From the NCBI RefSeq assembly GCF_029210485.1, contig NZ_JARGET010000005.1, positions 124,001-188,000 on the forward strand: 64,000 nucleotides of DNA. The letters run 5' to 3'. This DNA is from Hoeflea sp. YIM 152468. Lineage in GTDB: Bacteria; Pseudomonadota; Alphaproteobacteria; Rhizobiales; Rhizobiaceae. Both the position numbers and the translations under genes were made by a program. The notes under the pieces were generated by a model that was not told the DNA's origin, did not search any database, and was given only the letters and a program-made list of their open reading frames with translations. Every line of letters starts with the position of its first letter. Positions within the stretch are counted from its first letter, which is position 1. This document shows positions 36,552 to 44,382 of this stretch, in pieces.

Positions 36552-36923
36552 TCACCCATCGCCAAGATAGGTCTTGATGGTTTCGATGAATTTGGGCACC
36601 GAAATCGGCTTGGAAATATAGGCCTCGCACCCACCTTGGCGAATACGCTCCTCATCGCCCTTCATCGCAAATGCGGTTACGGCGATGATCGGAATGACGT
36701 GAAGATCATCATCCTGCTTGAGCCATTTGGTGACCTCCAGACCAGAGACTTCCGGCAACTGGATATCCATCAGGATGAGGTCCGGACGGTGCAGCCGGGC
36801 CAGATCCATCGCTTCCAGACCGCTGCGGGTCTGAATGGTCTTGTAGCCTGACGCCTCGATCAGGTCCCGGAAGAGTTTCATGTTGAGTTCATTGTCCTCA
36901 ACAATCATAACCTGCTTTGTCAT
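36552..36923 (-). CDS. divK: Single-domain response regulator DivK
   Basis: A 123-residue receiver domain with the acid pocket (EDNE, 9-12), phospho-acceptor Asp53 in [14 protein letters not shown], the Thr/Ala switch in [12 protein letters not shown] and the Lys of YISKPIS. DivK relays the PleC/DivJ signal to DivL-CckA and so lowers CtrA activity. ATG at 36923 gives the conserved start [18 protein letters not shown]. It leads the divK-pleD operon, which is typical for the clade. Confidence 0.96.
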
Positions 36924-37142
36924 GCCCGATCCCATTCCCGATCCAGCCAGGCGCTGCGCCCGTCAGATCCCTTTGCTGCCCGCAGCCGATGGTTTCTATC
37001 ACCGGATTTCGACTCGACTGGATTGCGATAAATTCCCTCCGCAACGCCCGTCAACGACATCACCTTAGTTCCATTAGGTTGAAAAAGTGGTAATTGGTCA
37101 TATCGGGTAGTTTGCATGGCGTTCGGGAAGCAGGAGAGAGCA

Positions 37143-37409
37143 ATGGCGGATGCGGAAGACACGGCAATTGCCGTGCTGGTCTGGCTTGCCGAAGAGCCGG
37201 AACTGATGGGCCGGTTTCTGGCCCTGACCGGGCTGGAAGCCTCGAACCTGCGCCAGGCCGCCAGGGAGCCGGGCTTTCTCGCCGGGGTTCTGGGCTTCCT
37301 GATGAACCACGAACCCACCCTGATGGATTTCTGCGCGGCCACCGGCACCCGGCCCGAATCAATCTCCCGCGCCTTCCAGGCGCTGGGCGGCACCGGCGAG
37401 AGCGGATGA
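37143..37409 (+). CDS. DUF3572-family protein
   Basis: An 88-residue all-helical soluble protein of the DUF3572 family, restricted mainly to alphaproteobacteria and without known function. The core runs VLVWLAEEPELMGRFLALTG...GFLAGVLGFLMNHEPTLMDFCAATG read in parts. ATG at 37143 follows AGGAGAG. Its stop overlaps the start of the HAD-like gene (ATGATG), so the two are coupled. It is divergent from divK. Confidence 0.85.
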   Translation: MADAEDTAIAVLVWLAEEPELMGRFLALTGLEASNLRQAAREPGFLAGVLGFLMNHEPTLMDFCAATGTRPESISRAFQALGGTGESG

Positions 37410-38062
37410 TGCTGATCCCAGACGCCGAGCATGATGACCTGCATTTGGGTGAACGGCCGCTGATCGTGTGCGATATCGACGAGGTGGTGCTGGAATTCGT
37501 GACCCCGTTCGCGGCGTTTCTGAGCCACAACGGCCACGAGTTGCGGGCCAACTCGTTTCGGCTGCACGGCAATATCTTTGAGCTCGAAGCCGGCGCCGAA
37601 ACCCCGGCCGACGAGGTGTCGCGGTTGCTGGAACTGTTCTTCGAGAGCCAGGACGAGTGGCAGACACCGGTCGTCTCCGCTGCCGACAGCCTGGCACGGT
37701 TGTCCGGCCAGGCTGATATCGTGTTTCTGACGGCCATGCCGCCGCACCACCGCAAGGTGCGCCGCAAACTGCTCTCCAGCCACGGGTTTGATTATCCGAT
37801 GATTGCGACCGAAGCACCCAAGGGACCGGCTGTCCTGGCGCTGCACGGCGCGCGCCCCCATCCGGTCGTGTTTGTCGATGATATCTTCGTCAATCTGCAA
37901 TCGGTTCGCACGCATGTGCCTCAAACCCTGCTGCTCAATCTGATGGCCAATGAAAAGTTTCGGGCGCTGGCGCCGCATCCCGGCGAGGGTGTCGACATTG
38001 TGACCGACTGGACCCACGCCGAGACGTTGATTGCGGCCCATTTCGACGCCAGCGCCCGATGA
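37406..38062 (+). CDS. HAD-superfamily-like hydrolase
   Basis: A 218-residue protein with HAD motifs: motif I DIDEVV with two Asp (near residue 26-28), motif II Thr in FLTAMPPHHRK, motif III basic residues, and the acidic motif FVDDIFVN. It is probably a phosphatase or related hydrolase; the substrate is not known. Start ATG 37406 (or the next codon, 37409) overlaps the stop of the DUF3572 gene, the usual pairing in rhizobia. Confidence 0.75.
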   Translation: MMLIPDAEHDDLHLGERPLIVCDIDEVVLEFVTPFAAFLSHNGHELRANSFRLHGNIFELEAGAETPADEVSRLLELFFESQDEWQTPVVSAADSLARLSGQADIVFLTAMPPHHRKVRRKLLSSHGFDYPMIATEAPKGPAVLALHGARPHPVVFVDDIFVNLQSVRTHVPQTLLLNLMANEKFRALAPHPGEGVDIVTDWTHAETLIAAHFDASAR

Positions 38063-38395
38063 GGCTGCTGCAGCCCTGACCGTCTGCCCCGGCGCGCGGC
38101 CGCAGGCTCCCTGTCCATCATGGCCAGATTTGCTTCGGGCTTTGCTGCGAGAGCCGAGGGTTTCGGCGACAGGTAATCTTGCGATGGAATCGGCTTTCGT
38201 CGTTGTGGCGGGGTTTCCGACTCGCAAGATTAAAGTCATGCGCGCTGATGTTCAACGTTTGTTCCCGGCTTCACCTTGCCCGATTGATCTGCCGGCACGA
38301 TCGCACACCCGGCAAGAGCAGCGGCGACCCTGCCCCAAGCCGGACCGCTCTCGACCTCTCTTGCGCAAATCGGCGATGCTCAATATTTGTTCCTG
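38063..38395 (+). other. Long 5' region of dinB
   Basis: 333 bases without a supportable gene. The only signal I can name is the LexA box at 38250-38264. The leader between it and the dinB start would be about 130 nt. Confidence 0.5.
38250..38264. promoter_or_regulatory. LexA (SOS) box upstream of dinB
   Basis: GTTC (38250-38253), seven bases, GTTC (38261-38264): an exact match to the alphaproteobacterial LexA site GTTC-N7-GTTC. It lies 132 bp before the dinB ATG. No clear -35/-10 pair could be fixed around it. Confidence 0.75.
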
Positions 38396-39700
38396 ATGAG
38401 CACAGCCTCGTCCGCACCCGGTTTTTGCCGCGACTGCCTGGCGCCTGCCCGCGCGGAGGTCAGGCGCTGCCACGCCTGTGGCAGCCCGCGCCTGATCCGT
38501 CACGTGGAGATCGACGCGCTGACCCTGGCGCATGTCGATTGCGATGCCTTTTACGCGACGGTGGAAAAACGCGACAATCCGGATCTGGCCGACAGGCCGG
38601 TGATCATCGGCGGGGGCAAGCGCGGTGTGGTGTCCACCTGTTGCTATATCGCGCGGATCAATGGTGTGCGCTCGGCGATGCCGATGTTCAAGGCGCTGGA
38701 GGCCTGCCCTGAAGCGGTGGTGATCAAGCCGGACATGGAAAAATATGCCCGCGTCGGGCGCGAGGTGCGGGTGCTGATGGAAGAGCTTACACCGCTGGTG
38801 CAGCCGATATCGATCGACGAGGCGTTCATGGACCTTGCCGGCACCGAAAAGCTGCACAAGGACACACCTGCCCGTACCCTCGCCCGTTTCGCCAGACGGG
38901 TGGAAGACGAAATCGGCATCAGCCTTTCGGTCGGCCTGTCCTACTGCAAGTTTCTGGCCAAGGTCGCGTCCGATCTTGACAAGCCGCGCGGCTTTTCGGT
39001 CATCGGCAAGGCCGAAGCGCTGGAGTTTCTCAAGCCGCGCCCGGTCTCACTGATCTGGGGGGTCGGCAAAGCCTTCACGGAGACGCTGGCGCGCGATGGC
39101 ATCCGCAGCATCGGCCAGTTGCAAGTCATGGAGGAGACCGCGCTGATGCGCAGCTATGGCGCCATGGGCAAGCGGCTCTACCACCTGGCCCGGGGCGAGG
39201 ATGATCGCACGGTCCATCTCAATGACGGGGCAAAAAGCGTTTCCGCCGAAACCACCTTCAACAGCGATCTGTCCGACGCCAGCGACCTGGTGCCGGTGCT
39301 CAGACGACTGTCGGAAAAGGTCTCGACACGGCTCAAGGCCTCGGGCATTGCCGGCCATACCGTCGTGCTCAAGCTCAAGACAGCCGATTTCAAAAGCCGG
39401 ACACGCAACTTCAGGCTCGAGGACCCGACCATGCTGGCGGACCGGATTTTCCGCACCGGCCTGCATCTGATCAACCGCGAGCTTGGCCAGGACCGGTTCC
39501 GGCTGCTCGGCATCGGCGTCACCGACCTGACCGATGGCGCGCGCGCCGATCCGCCGGATCTGGTCGATCCCGCCGCCGCGCGCCGGGCCGTGGCGGAGAG
39601 CGCAATCGACAAGGTGCGACAGAAATTCGGCCGCGACATTTTAGAGACCGGCTACACCTTCGGCAGCTCGCGCAAGACGCGGCAGGCGGAAGAGGATTAA
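38396..39700 (+). CDS. dinB: DNA polymerase IV with N-terminal Cys4 motif
   Basis: A 434-residue Y-family translesion polymerase. Catalytic carboxylates are visible in [19 protein letters not shown] (about 45-63) and [11 protein letters not shown]; the little-finger domain follows ([11 protein letters not shown]). Before the polymerase core is an extra segment with Cys11, Cys14, Cys25 and Cys28 (CRDC...CHAC), a likely zinc site found in rhizobial DinB. ATG at 38396 precedes this motif directly. A LexA box upstream supports SOS induction. The last four bases overlap the end of the convergent dnaE gene. Confidence 0.95.
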
Positions 39701-42700
39701 ACCAGTTCGACATCCAGAACGCCGGGGGCCGCCTTGAGCGCCGAGGCCAGTTGTGGCGTCAGCCGGTAGCGATCGGGCAACGTCACCTCGATTTCACGGC
39801 GGCCATCATCCTTGATCATGACGAACGAGACCTGACCCTCGCCGCGCGCCTTCAACTGCGTCGAAACCGAATTGAGCGGCTTTGCGTCGCGCATGTAGAC
39901 CCTGAGCGCCGACTGGCCGCGCGCGGCCCGGTCCTCGAGCGAATCGGCGGTCTGGATGCGCAGGCCGATGCCCTCGGGCCGTTCCTCGGCGTTGACCGTG
40001 ATGACGATCGATTTTCCCGGCTCGAGCAGTTCGCGATAGAGCGCCAGACCTTCGGAAAACAGCACCGCCTCGTACTGGCCGGAGCTGTCGGAGAACGCGA
40101 CGATGCCCATCTTGTTTCCGGTGCGGGTCTTGCGCTCCTGCTTGCTGGTGACAGTGCCGGCGAGCCGTCCGGCGGTGGCGCCGGCCTTGACCGAGACGGA
40201 GAAATCGGCCCAGGTCTGAACCCGCATCTTGGCCAGCAGATCATTATAGGAATCAAGCGGGTGCGCGGAAAGATAGAACCCCAGAGCCTGGTATTCACGA
40301 TGCAGCTTCTCCGCCGGCAACCATGGCACGGTCGGCGGCAAATGGATGGTTTCGGCCTCCATTGCGCCGCCGCCACCTGCACCAAACATGTCGCTCTGGC
40401 CACTGATGCGGTTTTCCTGCGCCCGCTGGGCAAAGCCGATGATGCGGTCAAGGCCGGCACTCAACATCGCCCGATCGGGACCGAAACAATCAAGCGCACC
40501 GGCCGCGATCAGGCTTTCAAGCACCCGGCGGTTGACCTGACGCGGATCGATCCTGGTGCAGAAATCCTCAAGCGAGGCAAAGGGCGCGTCACCGCGCACC
40601 TCGACGATGTGGTCAACGGCAGCCTCGCCGACGCCCTTGATGGCGGCCAGCGCGTAATAGATCTTGTTGTCGCCGGTCTCGAAGTGGCGGAAACTGGTCT
40701 GCACCGAAGGGGCTGCCACCTCGATGCCGAGACGTTTGGCATCCTGACGGAAATCATTGAGCTTGTCGGTGTTGGACATGTCGAGCGTCATCGACGCCGC
40801 CAGAAACTCGACCGGATAATGCGCCTTGAGATAGGCGGTCTGGTAGGAGACGATGCCATAGGCTGCGGCGTGCGACTTGTTGAAGCCGTAATTGGCGAAC
40901 TTGGCCAAGAGATCGAAGATCATGTCAGCCTGCGGCTTGGAGACATCGCGCTCCACCGCGCCCTCGACAAAGCGGGCGCGCTGCTTGTCCATTTCCTCCT
41001 TAATCTTCTTGCCCATGGCGCGCCGCAGAAGATCGGCTTCACCGAGCGAATAGCCGGCCAGCACCTGGGCGATCTGCATCACCTGTTCCTGATAAACGAT
41101 GACGCCTTGTGTCTCGGCCAGCAGATTGTCGATCTTGGGATGGATGGAGGCCAGTTCCTCCTCGCCATGCTTGCGCGCATTGTAGACCGGAATGTTCTCC
41201 ATCGGACCGGGGCGGTAGAGCGCAACAAGCGCGATGATGTCCTCGATCCGGTCCGGGCGCATGCCGATCAGCGCCTTGCGCATGCCGGCCGATTCCACCT
41301 GAAACACGCCGACGGTCTCGCCCCGCGACAGCATTTCGTAGGTCGGCCTGTCATCAAGCGGCAGCGCTTCGAGGTCAATCGTGATGTTGCGTTTGGCGAT
41401 GAAACCGACTGCGGTCTTGAGCACGGTCAGAGTCTTGAGGCCGAGGAAGTCGAATTTGACCAGCCCGGCCTGCTCCACCCATTTCATGTTGAACTGGGTG
41501 ACCGGCATGTCCGAACGCGGATCGCGGTACATCGGCACCAGTTGCGACAGCGGACGGTCGCCGATGACGATGCCCGCGGCATGGGTCGAGGCATGGCGGT
41601 ACAGCCCCTCAAGCTTTTGCGCGATGTCGAGCAACTGCCCGACCGCCGGCTCCTTTTCCACTTCCTCATTGAAGCGCGGCTCTTCCTCGATCGCCTGTTT
41701 CAGCGGCGTCGGGTTGGCCGGATTGTTGGGCACCAGCTTGCAGATCCGGTCCACCAGGCCGTAAGGCATTTCCAGCACACGGCCGACGTCGCGCAGGGCT
41801 GCACGCGCCTGCAGGCTTCCGAAGGTTATGATTTGGCCGACCTGCTCGCGGCCATATTTGCCCACCACGTAACGGATCACCTCTTCCCGGCGATCCTGGC
41901 AAAAGTCGATATCGAAATCCGGCATCGAGACGCGGGCGGGGTTGAGAAAGCGCTCGAACAGCAAGGAGAAGCGCAAGGGATCAACATCGGTAATGGTCAG
42001 CGCATAGGCCACCAGCGAGCCTGCCCCGGACCCACGTCCGGGTCCCACCGGAATGCCCTGATCCTTGGCCCATTTGATAAAGTCGGCGACGATCAGGAAG
42101 TAACCGGGAAACTTCATGTTCTCGATGATGTCGAGTTCAACCTGCAGGCGGTCGCGGTAGTCGGTTTCCGAATATCCCTCGGCCAGGCCGATTCGCGCCA
42201 GCCGGCGCTCCAGCCCTTCGATCGACTGTCGCCGCAGTTCTGCAGCTTCGGCGGCGAGAGCGGAATCGGGATCCTCCTCGCCACCGCCGGTGAAGCGCGG
42301 AAGAATCGGCGCTCTGAGCTCGACAATCGCACTGCAGCGGCGGGCAATCTCGACGGTGTTGGCCAAAGCTTCGGGAATATCGGCAAACAATTGCGTCATT
42401 TCCGAGCGGGATTTGAGGCAATGGTCCACACTCAGCCGCGGCCGCCGGTCATCCGACATGACCGCGTTGCAGGCCACAGCCATCAGTGCGTCATGGGCCT
42501 CAAAGTCATCGGGGGTGGGAAAGAAGGCCTCATTGGTGGCCACAAGCGGAACTTCGCTGTCGTAGGCCAGCGCAATCATCTTGGACTCATGGGCCCGGTC
42601 ATATCCACGCTGACGCTGCAATTCAATGTAAAGCCGGTCGCCGAACACCGCCTTGAGGCTTTCCAGCCGTGTCCGGGCCTGCTCCGCGTGCCCTTCGCGG

Positions 42701-43266
42701 ACCGCCTGATCCACCGGGCCGCCCAATCCCCCTGACAGGGCGATCAGGCCGGCAGCGTCCTGTTGCAGCCATGACAAGCCAATATGGGGCCGGTCGCCGC
42801 CACTGTCGTCGCCGAGATAGGCCTGGCTGACAAGGGCCACCAGCCGTTCATAACCGGCCGGAGTGGCAGCATAGAGAACAATCGACGGCGCCTTTTGCAA
42901 ATGATCCCGGTGCGAGGACCGGCGCTCGGATGCCTGAGCGTCCTCCATATCTATCTCGAGCTGACACCCGATGAGCGGCTGAATACCCGCCTCCATCGCC
43001 TTGACCGAAAACTCAAGTGCGCCAAACAGATTGTTGGTGTCGGTAATGGCGAGTGCCGGCTGGTTATCGTCAACGGCGCGCTTGATCAGCGTCTTGATCG
43101 GCAACGCGCCTTCAAGCAGGGAATAGGCCGAGTGTACACGCAAATGCACAAAGCCCGGCCAGGTCTCGGAGACCCGATCATCGGCCTGACCGTCACGCAG
43201 ACGCGCCTCGCCCGCACCCGCGGCCAGATTTGCCAGCAACTTCGCCGATTTACTTTCCCGTGCCAT
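39697..43266 (-). CDS. dnaE: DNA polymerase III alpha subunit (replicative, DnaE1)
   Basis: A 1189-residue C-family polymerase. The N-terminal PHP domain starts [16 protein letters not shown]; the catalytic carboxylates lie in [16 protein letters not shown] and [15 protein letters not shown]; the helix-hairpin-helix and OB-fold ([20 protein letters not shown]) follow. Length, the full PHP start and lack of imuA/imuB neighbours mark it as replicative DnaE1 and not the mutagenic DnaE2. ATG at 43266 follows AGAGGG; an in-frame ATG at 43365 would add an atypical basic stretch. It is convergent with dinB, the stops overlapping. Confidence 0.95.
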
Positions 43267-43489
43267 GGGTGCCCTCTGCCGCCTGTTCCGCAACCAGGCA
43301 CCAATTCGGCGCCGCGCAGACTCAAACGCCAATTGTGAGGACCCGGACCGCAAAGTCCAGAGCACAAACAGCTAAAACACCAAGCACACACGGCTTGATC
43401 GCCAACCCTCGCGGCCACCGCCCAGCGCATCAGCGCCTGGCACCTCAGCCGAGACCAGGCAGGCTTGCAAATCCAGGCCAACTCCACAC

Positions 43490-43513
43490 CACGCCGCCCA
43501 ATCCGGCGGCGTG
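43490..43513 (-). terminator. GC-rich stem-loop 3' of the SOS microprotein ORF
   Basis: A 9-bp perfect stem (43490-43498 with 43505-43513) and a 6-nt loop, 23 nt after the small ORF stop. The T run lies before it on the minus strand and not after, so it is not a canonical terminator; it may protect the 3' end or limit readthrough toward dnaE. Confidence 0.4.
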
Positions 43514-43536
43514 AAAAATTCAGCAAAAGTCGCCTG

Positions 43537-43623
43537 TCAGAACGCCATCGCAAGCACGGCGAAGCTCGCCACAAACAGCGACATGGAAACGAAAGCGGCA
43601 ATGTCACGGGCAAATGCAGTCAT
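43537..43623 (-). CDS. Candidate SOS-induced membrane microprotein (28 residues)
   Basis: A 28-residue ORF. It begins MTAFARD, then has a continuous hydrophobic stretch from about residue 8 to 28 (IAAFVSMSLFVASF and on to a final MAF), so one membrane helix with a short charged N-terminus. Support for translation: AGGAG at 43630-43634, 6 nt before the ATG. Support for regulated transcription: a TTGACG/CATAAA promoter with 17-bp spacing whose spacer holds a LexA box. The size, single helix and SOS control resemble Caulobacter SidA, a 29-residue SOS-induced inner-membrane inhibitor of division; sequence homology to SidA is not claimed. It lies between hupB and dnaE on their strand. Confidence 0.65.
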   Translation of the reverse strand: MTAFARDIAAFVSMSLFVASFAVLAMAF

Positions 43624-43656
43624 GATCAGCTCCTATCTAAATCCGTTTGTGTTGCC

Positions 43657-43685
43657 TTTATGTTCTCTTTTTGTTCACGCGTCAA
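43657..43685 (-). promoter_or_regulatory. LexA-controlled promoter of the microprotein ORF
   Basis: On the minus strand: -35 TTGACG (43680-43685), 17-bp spacer, -10 CATAAA (43657-43662). The LexA box GAAC-N7-GAAC (43662-43676) fills most of the spacer and touches the -10, so bound repressor would block RNA polymerase. Expected start of transcription is about 27 nt before the ATG. Confidence 0.75.
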
Positions 43686-43823
43686 GCGCATTTAAACCGA
43701 ATTGTCTGGAAATGCGTCCTTTGCGCCGCCGGCTGGATGCGCGGCGCTGTAGATGAGCGACATCTTCAAGCCTCATGGAACCTGGCCGGGACCGCCTGCC
43801 CGCGGTCGCGGCACGCAGGCAAC

Positions 43824-43856
43824 GCAAAAAGCCCGGACGCGGGCGCCCGGGCTTTC
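43824..43856 (-). terminator. Rho-independent terminator of hupB
   Basis: On minus, AAAGCCCGG and CCGGGCTTT arms enclose a 10-nt GC-rich loop and end in TTTTTG, 25 nt after the hupB stop. It separates hupB from the downstream SOS promoter. Confidence 0.8.
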
Positions 43857-43881
43857 GTGTCTGCATAATGGAAATTGCAGC

Positions 43882-44154
43882 TTAGTTGCAGGCGTCCTTG
43901 AGACCCTTGCCGGCCGAGAACTTCGGCACGTTGCGCGCCGGGATATCGACTTCCTTGCCAGTTTGCGGGTTGCGGCCCTTAGAGGCTTCACGACGCGACA
44001 CTGTAAAGTTGCCAAAGCCGATCAACCGCACTTCGCCGCCATTCTTGAGTTCACCGGTGATGGTTTCAAAAACCGCTTCAACAGCCGATGTTGCATCTCC
44101 CTTGCTGAGGCCCGATTTCTCGGCCACAGAAGCTACCAGTTCATTCTTGTTCAT
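43882..44154 (-). CDS. hupB: HU-family DNA-binding protein
   Basis: A 90-residue histone-like protein that bends and compacts DNA. It has the standard plan MNKNELVASVAEKSGLSKGDA, helix 2, the GFGNFTVSRREASKGRNPQTG arm (read in parts) and the end IPARNVPKFSAGKGLKDA. AAAGGGA precedes the ATG at 44154. It lies downstream of lon on the same strand in the usual clpP-clpX-lon-hupB order. Confidence 0.96.
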   Translation of the reverse strand: MNKNELVASVAEKSGLSKGDATSAVEAVFETITGELKNGGEVRLIGFGNFTVSRREASKGRNPQTGKEVDIPARNVPKFSAGKGLKDACN

Positions 44155-44382
44155 CGTTCGTCCCTTTCTGGCGTTATCTCGACTCATTTCGTTCGATGCG
44201 GTGATCCTACGCATCTATCGGTCCGGCGCAACCAAACTCCCCGTAAAGCCTCGCTTTATAGGGGCTTTTTACAGGCTTTTCGGCATCAGCGAACCTCATC
44301 TGAGGTCATGGAAAACGAAATGCGACGAAAATATTCAGATTGCGTCCACATTCGACACATCATGTGACGTGTCCGGCTGAAC

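Follow-up and report, generated by a model that had tools for sequence, protein, structure and literature searches.

A 28-residue predicted membrane microprotein encoded behind a putative LexA box and upstream of dnaE in Hoeflea is probably a rhizobial ortholog of SidA

We analyzed a stretch of 64,000 nucleotides from Hoeflea sp. YIM 152468 (hereafter the window) and found a 28-codon ORF that, by its position and sequence, is very likely orthologous to a gene located upstream of dnaE in Caulobacter. The broader statement that this ORF is the rhizobial SidA ortholog, including a LexA-controlled function in the inhibition of cell division, appears probable from the same sequence comparisons. The gene and its candidate control site were directly observed, as were the purifying selection acting on the ORF, its linkage to dnaE and its homology to a 29-codon ORF of C. 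vibrioides.

The original prediction had described a short ORF with an AGGAG-N6-ATG start and a hydrophobic stretch, preceded by a TTGACG-N17-CATAAA promoter with a GAAC-N7-GAAC box, and all of these elements were recovered at the predicted places (Table 1). The microprotein contains a single hydrophobic stretch starting from about residue 8, and the putative LexA box sits in the spacer of the candidate promoter. HU, lon and clpX are found upstream of the ORF and the replicative dnaE downstream; the homology of the longest dnaE ORF of the window to other DnaE proteins starts at about residue 70. The HU gene is followed by a terminator-like site (43844-43831, minus strand), so that the microgene probably depends on a promoter of its own, and the region between the ORF and dnaE presents one weak terminator-like site only (43399-43379). 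Taken alone, the box is not significant: three GAAC-N7-GAAC matches were found in the window for 1.95 expected. A strict sigma-70 scan of positions 43050-43900 did not score any promoter. Because the box is found at chance frequency and no strict sigma-70 match was detected, the argument must rest on conservation. Neither Pfam nor NCBIfam assigned a family to the 28-aa protein, and a search with this single query did not reveal any phage-borne copy among 50,697 phage records.

Table 1. Positions of the microgene, its candidate control elements and its neighbors in the window.
Feature	Position	Strand	Basis
28-codon ORF, probable SidA-family single-TM microprotein MTAFARDIAAFVSMSLFVASFAVLAMAF	43537..43623 (stop included)	minus	ORF reading; genus conservation; pN/pS
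Putative LexA box GAACAAAAAGAGAAC, GAAC-N7-GAAC	43662..43676	minus	Genus conservation; order-wide association specific to a spacing of 7
-35-like hexamer TTGACG	43680..43685	minus	TTGAC invariant in 16/16 genus loci
Putative -10 CATAAA	43657..43662	minus	Spaced 17 nt from the -35; low conservation across genus loci
Shine-Dalgarno AGGAG	43630..43634	minus	Six bases before ATG; GGAG invariant in 16/16
HU-family gene, upstream neighbor	43882..44214	minus	Domain search
dnaE, replicative DNA polymerase III alpha, conserved downstream neighbor	39697..43365 (longest ORF)	minus	NF004226

Several other features of this region and genome were recorded. A dispersed element of about 39 bp, CTACAGCGCCGCGC...GCAAAGGACGC, is located just upstream of the microgene promoter (43714-43752, minus strand) and is repeated many times in this genome and in other genomes of the genus. 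Another exact GAAC-N7-GAAC sequence, GAACAAACGTTGAAC, is found at 38250-38264 (minus strand), 10 bases upstream of an ORF of 439 aa without Pfam match at E 1e-4 (36920-38239, minus strand); it is possible that this box is a further LexA target or a chance occurrence. The segment 35163-36536 (minus strand) encodes two receiver-domain stretches and a GGDEF domain, which we take to be the architecture of PleD. Finally, the same genome carries a second DnaE-type polymerase (L131, G000:C14:109256-109756), which is probably the DnaE2 of SOS mutagenesis.

We found the block formed by the microgene and its control elements in 16 of the 18 genomes of the genus, including the window's own; the completeness of the two genomes without it is 77% (G007) and 75% (G008). 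The TTGAC hexamer core, the GAACA-N6-GAAC box, GGAG, the ATG and the 28-codon frame were intact in all 16 loci, while conserved alignment columns were almost absent from both flanks. The coding stretch always spans 84 bases before the stop and did not experience any length change. Across the 120 pairs of these 16 coding stretches, we estimated a pS of 0.469 and a pN of 0.044 (pN/pS of 0.093), and variable columns were found at 9, 2 and 24 of the 28 first, second and third codon positions, respectively. The check that the original prediction had put forward, namely conservation of the LexA box, ribosome site and reading frame with a bias toward synonymous changes, therefore held in all 16 loci.

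We then searched 297 genomes of the family with a profile built from the genus sequences, which yielded 197 matches at E <= 1, many of them weak. All 25 well-scoring loci outside the genus were located upstream of dnaE, and 24 of them presented an exact GAAC-N7-GAAC within the 120 bases preceding the match; the remaining locus, L039, carries a variant. HU and lon adjoin the microgene in L036-L039 and at all but one of the 16 genus loci, the exception being L016, where dnaE is the only neighbor visible in 3.1 kb; they are not adjacent in L040-L060. Since these neighbors change while dnaE stays, the microgene follows dnaE and not its other neighbors.

The linkage was also evaluated across the order independently of the peptide, using dnaE as bait. 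We detected dnaE in 160 of 169 genomes and examined the region upstream of it in 130 of these 160, the window's own genome among them, searching for a box, then a ribosome site, then an ORF of 24-60 aa with a hydrophobic stretch. With the spacing of 7 nucleotides, at least 54 of the 130 regions qualified with an exact box and 63 when one mismatch was allowed. Control spacings of 5, 6, 8, 9 and 10 yielded 1, 3, 0, 2 and 1 regions with exact boxes and 7, 13, 6, 10 and 8 regions with up to one mismatch, so that chance may account for a small number of the cases with one mismatch. Exact boxes were present in 62 of the 130 regions, and 54 of these 62 boxes were accompanied by a microprotein. In 67 regions (two of them short, with 388 and 165 bases) no match was found even with one mismatch in the box; seven of these possess an exact box, and one of the seven, L459, presents a microprotein by eye that is outside the count of 54. 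Within the order set, between about 68 and 499 nt separate the stop of the microprotein from the first DnaE-homologous codon.

We extended the search to the class with two profiles, A2 (Rhizobiaceae-type sequences) and A3 (a broader set with no row from a named Caulobacterales and one row from another family of the class). These searches yielded mostly chance matches, without dnaE or box, and the true members among them were L069, L101, L102 and L117; for this reason, the regions upstream of dnaE were read instead. The survey covered 100 such regions, mostly the best-scoring, out of 138 dnaE matches other than the window's own (two regions were short, with 247 and 630 bases). An exact box was found in 19 of them and was followed by a TM microprotein in all cases but one (L168). 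The resulting 18 members comprise 16 cases identified by script and two identified by eye (L215 and L228), and two of the 18 (L134 and L186) belong to the window's own order. These results indicate that the family occurs in a large part of the order and has a scattered distribution in the class. Two boxes sharing one GAAC half-site were observed in L049, L054, L056, L058, L059 and L472 (S. meliloti included), and such overlapping boxes perhaps reflect cooperative LexA binding.

Named genomes were reached using as bait the CcrM of PDB entry 6pbd, which we take to be that of C. crescentus, and retaining the best 80 loci; CcrM worked for reaching Caulobacter, and MipZ was the wrong marker. The segment from 6pbd matches C. 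vibrioides DSM 9893 with 100% identity. We found dnaE in all 26 named genomes that were chosen. Upstream of dnaE, C. vibrioides DSM 9893 presents an exact box (GAACATCTTGTGAAC) and two additional boxes with one mismatch, and these are followed by an ORF that counts exactly 29 codons and terminates 35 bases ahead of the ATG of dnaE. On its other side, an ORF of at most 366 codons runs on the opposite strand (L334, 2427-3527, plus strand; nucleoside-hydrolase-like by eye) and is followed by lolD. Such a microgene was identified in 19 of the 26 genomes, 14 with exact boxes and five with near-matches (some of these assignments were made by eye). The carriers are all seven Caulobacter, all four Phenylobacterium, Brevundimonas, Asticcacaulis, SZAS-4, two Parvibaculum, RI_261, Maricaulis and Marinicaulis, and those with one-mismatch boxes only are four Caulobacter and Asticcacaulis. 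We did not detect the gene in seven of the 26 genomes: the five Rhodobacteraceae that were examined, two of which were scanned for exact boxes only, Thalassospira and Paramagnetospirillum.

From its length, its position and its LexA box, we strongly infer that the 29-codon ORF of C. vibrioides is the published SidA, whose gene is presumably CC_1927. In the available excerpts of the literature, SidA is designated CCNA_02004 (PMC10769358) and dnaE of strain CB15 is CC1926 (PMC1839093). The start codon of sidA is reported in part of PMC4117421 to have been corrected, which fits the longer in-frame starts of the C. vibrioides ORF. SidA is described as an inner-membrane protein of 29 residues that is induced through LexA cleavage, interacts with FtsW and FtsN, is suppressed by mutations in FtsW/FtsI and is lethal when overproduced from plasmids (excerpt of PMC4211646).

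We next compared our profiles to A4, a set of nine Caulobacterales-type sequences. The profile-profile comparison of A2 and A4 yielded probabilities of 49-53 (E-values of 1.4e-4 to 1.8e-4) and that of A3 and A4 a probability of 90.5 (E-value of 1.4e-6); in both cases, none of 200 column shuffles scored as high. A narrow set restricted to the genus (A1) yielded a probability of 27 that was equaled by four of 200 shuffles, and this comparison alone is therefore not convincing. The A2 and A3 comparisons thus indicate a homology that goes beyond hydrophobic composition. In an alignment of 70 sequences, F occupies 94% of the column of F17, D or E 92% of that of D7 and A or S 89% of that of A10. The C-terminal half differs: the column of L24 contains W in 64% of the aligned sequences, and this residue is absent from the protein of the window. 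The helix motif [DE]xx[AST][LF]x[SAT][LIVM]xxF was found in 40 of 57 distinct sequences of the order, relative to a mean of 0.07 and a maximum of one in 1000 shuffles; this motif was written after the alignment was seen, and the 57 sequences had been selected solely on their box, ribosome site and hydrophobicity. Only one of 16 distant class sequences presents the motif (16 of the 18 members, two near-duplicates being left out), and the assignment of the class members therefore relies chiefly on their position, box and TM helix. The original prediction had proposed a functional analogue of SidA. The relation to SidA proved stronger than proposed, and the profile match and the linkage to dnaE point to orthology and not to analogy alone.

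In S. meliloti Ak57 (CP090106.1), the gene order is proS, lolC, lolD, an unannotated gap and dnaE. This gap encodes a 28-aa homolog, MADFVRDLAAFASMSLFIVSISVIALGL, after TTGACTATCGAACGGAAATAGAACAAAAAGGGAAC with two overlapping boxes, and the same 28 residues are encoded by L058, from the window's family, which suggests a place for the window in Rhizobiaceae sensu lato. A Ribo-seq study of S. meliloti 2011 listed sORF25, located in the 5'UTR of dnaE1, as a novel translated ORF and raised a possible uORF role (excerpt of PMC10117765); based on its position relative to dnaE, sORF25 is probably the S. meliloti microprotein gene. The gene had been predicted to be missing from databases. This is the case for the Ak57 record, whose gene table is incomplete by its own description, but sORF25 is probably the same gene and has been published (PMC10117765, in part). 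CP090106.1 (L472) is a 3.7-Mb sequence labeled as S. meliloti plasmid pSymB; it carries proS, lolCD and dnaE and is therefore probably a mislabeled chromosome.

Under the SidA-like function that we favor, LexA would occupy the GAAC-N7-GAAC box in the promoter spacer and keep RNA polymerase out in the absence of damage. Upon DNA damage, RecA-driven self-cleavage of LexA would free the promoter, and the 28-residue peptide would be produced and enter the inner membrane as one helix, with its short R6-D7 N-terminus in the cytoplasm. The peptide may then contact FtsW and FtsN, two proteins of the late divisome, and hold the FtsW/FtsI/FtsN complex inactive, such that septation would be delayed until repair. 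For the source strain, LexA binding, SOS induction, membrane topology, binding to FtsW and FtsN and the division block are what we infer from these comparisons.

Alternatively, the ORF could regulate the downstream dnaE instead of division, acting as a leader peptide or upstream ORF either through its translation or through the transcript driven by SOS. This is the main rival, and its role and that of a division inhibitor are compatible. Every LexA-box locus retrieved by the family and class-wide profile searches lies 5' of dnaE, the gap of only 35 bases in C. vibrioides makes one transcript with dnaE likely, and sORF25 was placed in the annotated dnaE1 5'UTR by authors who raised a uORF role (excerpt of PMC10117765). 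However, selection acts on the amino-acid sequence of the membrane helix (pN/pS of 0.093), the distance to DnaE is variable across the order, and sidA, which very probably is the Caulobacter gene, encodes a product that is lethal upon overproduction (excerpt of PMC4211646). The pattern is thus not that of selection on translation or on a fixed spacing irrespective of the peptide sequence, and we consider regulation of dnaE as the role of this ORF unlikely. Co-transcription with dnaE may occur.

It is similarly improbable that the microprotein is a membrane-active toxin that works by lowering the membrane potential and not through the divisome. TisB is an SOS-induced toxin of this kind, and the size, the single hydrophobic helix and the LexA control of our candidate would fit such a function equally well. 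E. coli DinQ is likewise an SOS-regulated toxic peptide with a single TM (excerpt of PMC3567139). Against this possibility, the Caulobacter ORF has in common with the microprotein the specific helix motif given above, and not just hydrophobicity, as well as the position adjoining dnaE. Finally, the combination of a chance ORF with a chance LexA-like box is barely conceivable: although the box pattern is expected about twice per window and the strict sigma-70 scan was negative, this explanation is refuted by the conservation in 16 of 16 loci, the low pN/pS and the association across the order that is specific to one spacing.

Our results make it fairly likely that SidA is an ancestral SOS checkpoint gene of Alphaproteobacteria that has stayed joined to dnaE across orders. 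It would then be the SOS division inhibitor so far missing from rhizobia and related bacteria, and its sequence would evolve fast while LexA control, linkage to dnaE and a short helix motif running from an acidic residue to Phe hold it together. The breadth of the family and its constant linkage to dnaE seem to be new: in the open-licence literature, we did not recognize any paper on SidA outside Caulobacter or on its link to dnaE. One textual match in PMC10811719 (in part) referred to Sidak's test, and SidA was absent as a whole word from PMC9638019. With this reading, S. meliloti gains a candidate gene, a control site and a likely target, and SidA is widened from Caulobacter to a large part of the class. 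The linkage also raises the question of whether the supply of polymerase is co-induced with a brake on division.

Several known systems resemble the microprotein of the window. YneA of Bacillus and SosA of Staphylococcus are larger proteins. Both are SOS-induced division inhibitors, and YneA interacts with FtsW (excerpts of PMC13396833 for YneA and PMC6851548 for SosA). DidA of Caulobacter is likewise a small, damage-induced division inhibitor with a single TM, but it differs by its 71 aa, its independence from SOS and its binding to FtsN (excerpt of PMC4211646). sORF25 of S. meliloti 2011 occupies the same position relative to dnaE, where the ORF of Ak57 encodes 28 aa homologous to those of the window; its authors proposed a possible uORF, and the available excerpt mentions no link to SOS or SidA (PMC10117765). 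The closest counterpart is SidA of C. crescentus (CCNA_02004), taking the C. vibrioides gene as sidA. The upstream neighbors differ, with HU and lon in the window and the opposite-strand ORF followed by lolD in C. vibrioides, where lolD is near but not adjacent to the 29-codon ORF, unlike in S. meliloti. The FVWM segment, invariant in the nine A4 sequences, is also absent from the protein of the window. Both proteins nevertheless present R-[DE]-x-x-A-[FL]-V-S-[MV]-x-x-F-V and about 42% identity over 19 aligned positions, with 28 residues in the window and 29 in SidA and one TM helix each, and both genes lie directly upstream of dnaE with LexA boxes upstream. The gene of the window thus combines the features by which SidA is recognized: a candidate LexA operator, a product of about 29 residues with one predicted TM helix and a position before dnaE.
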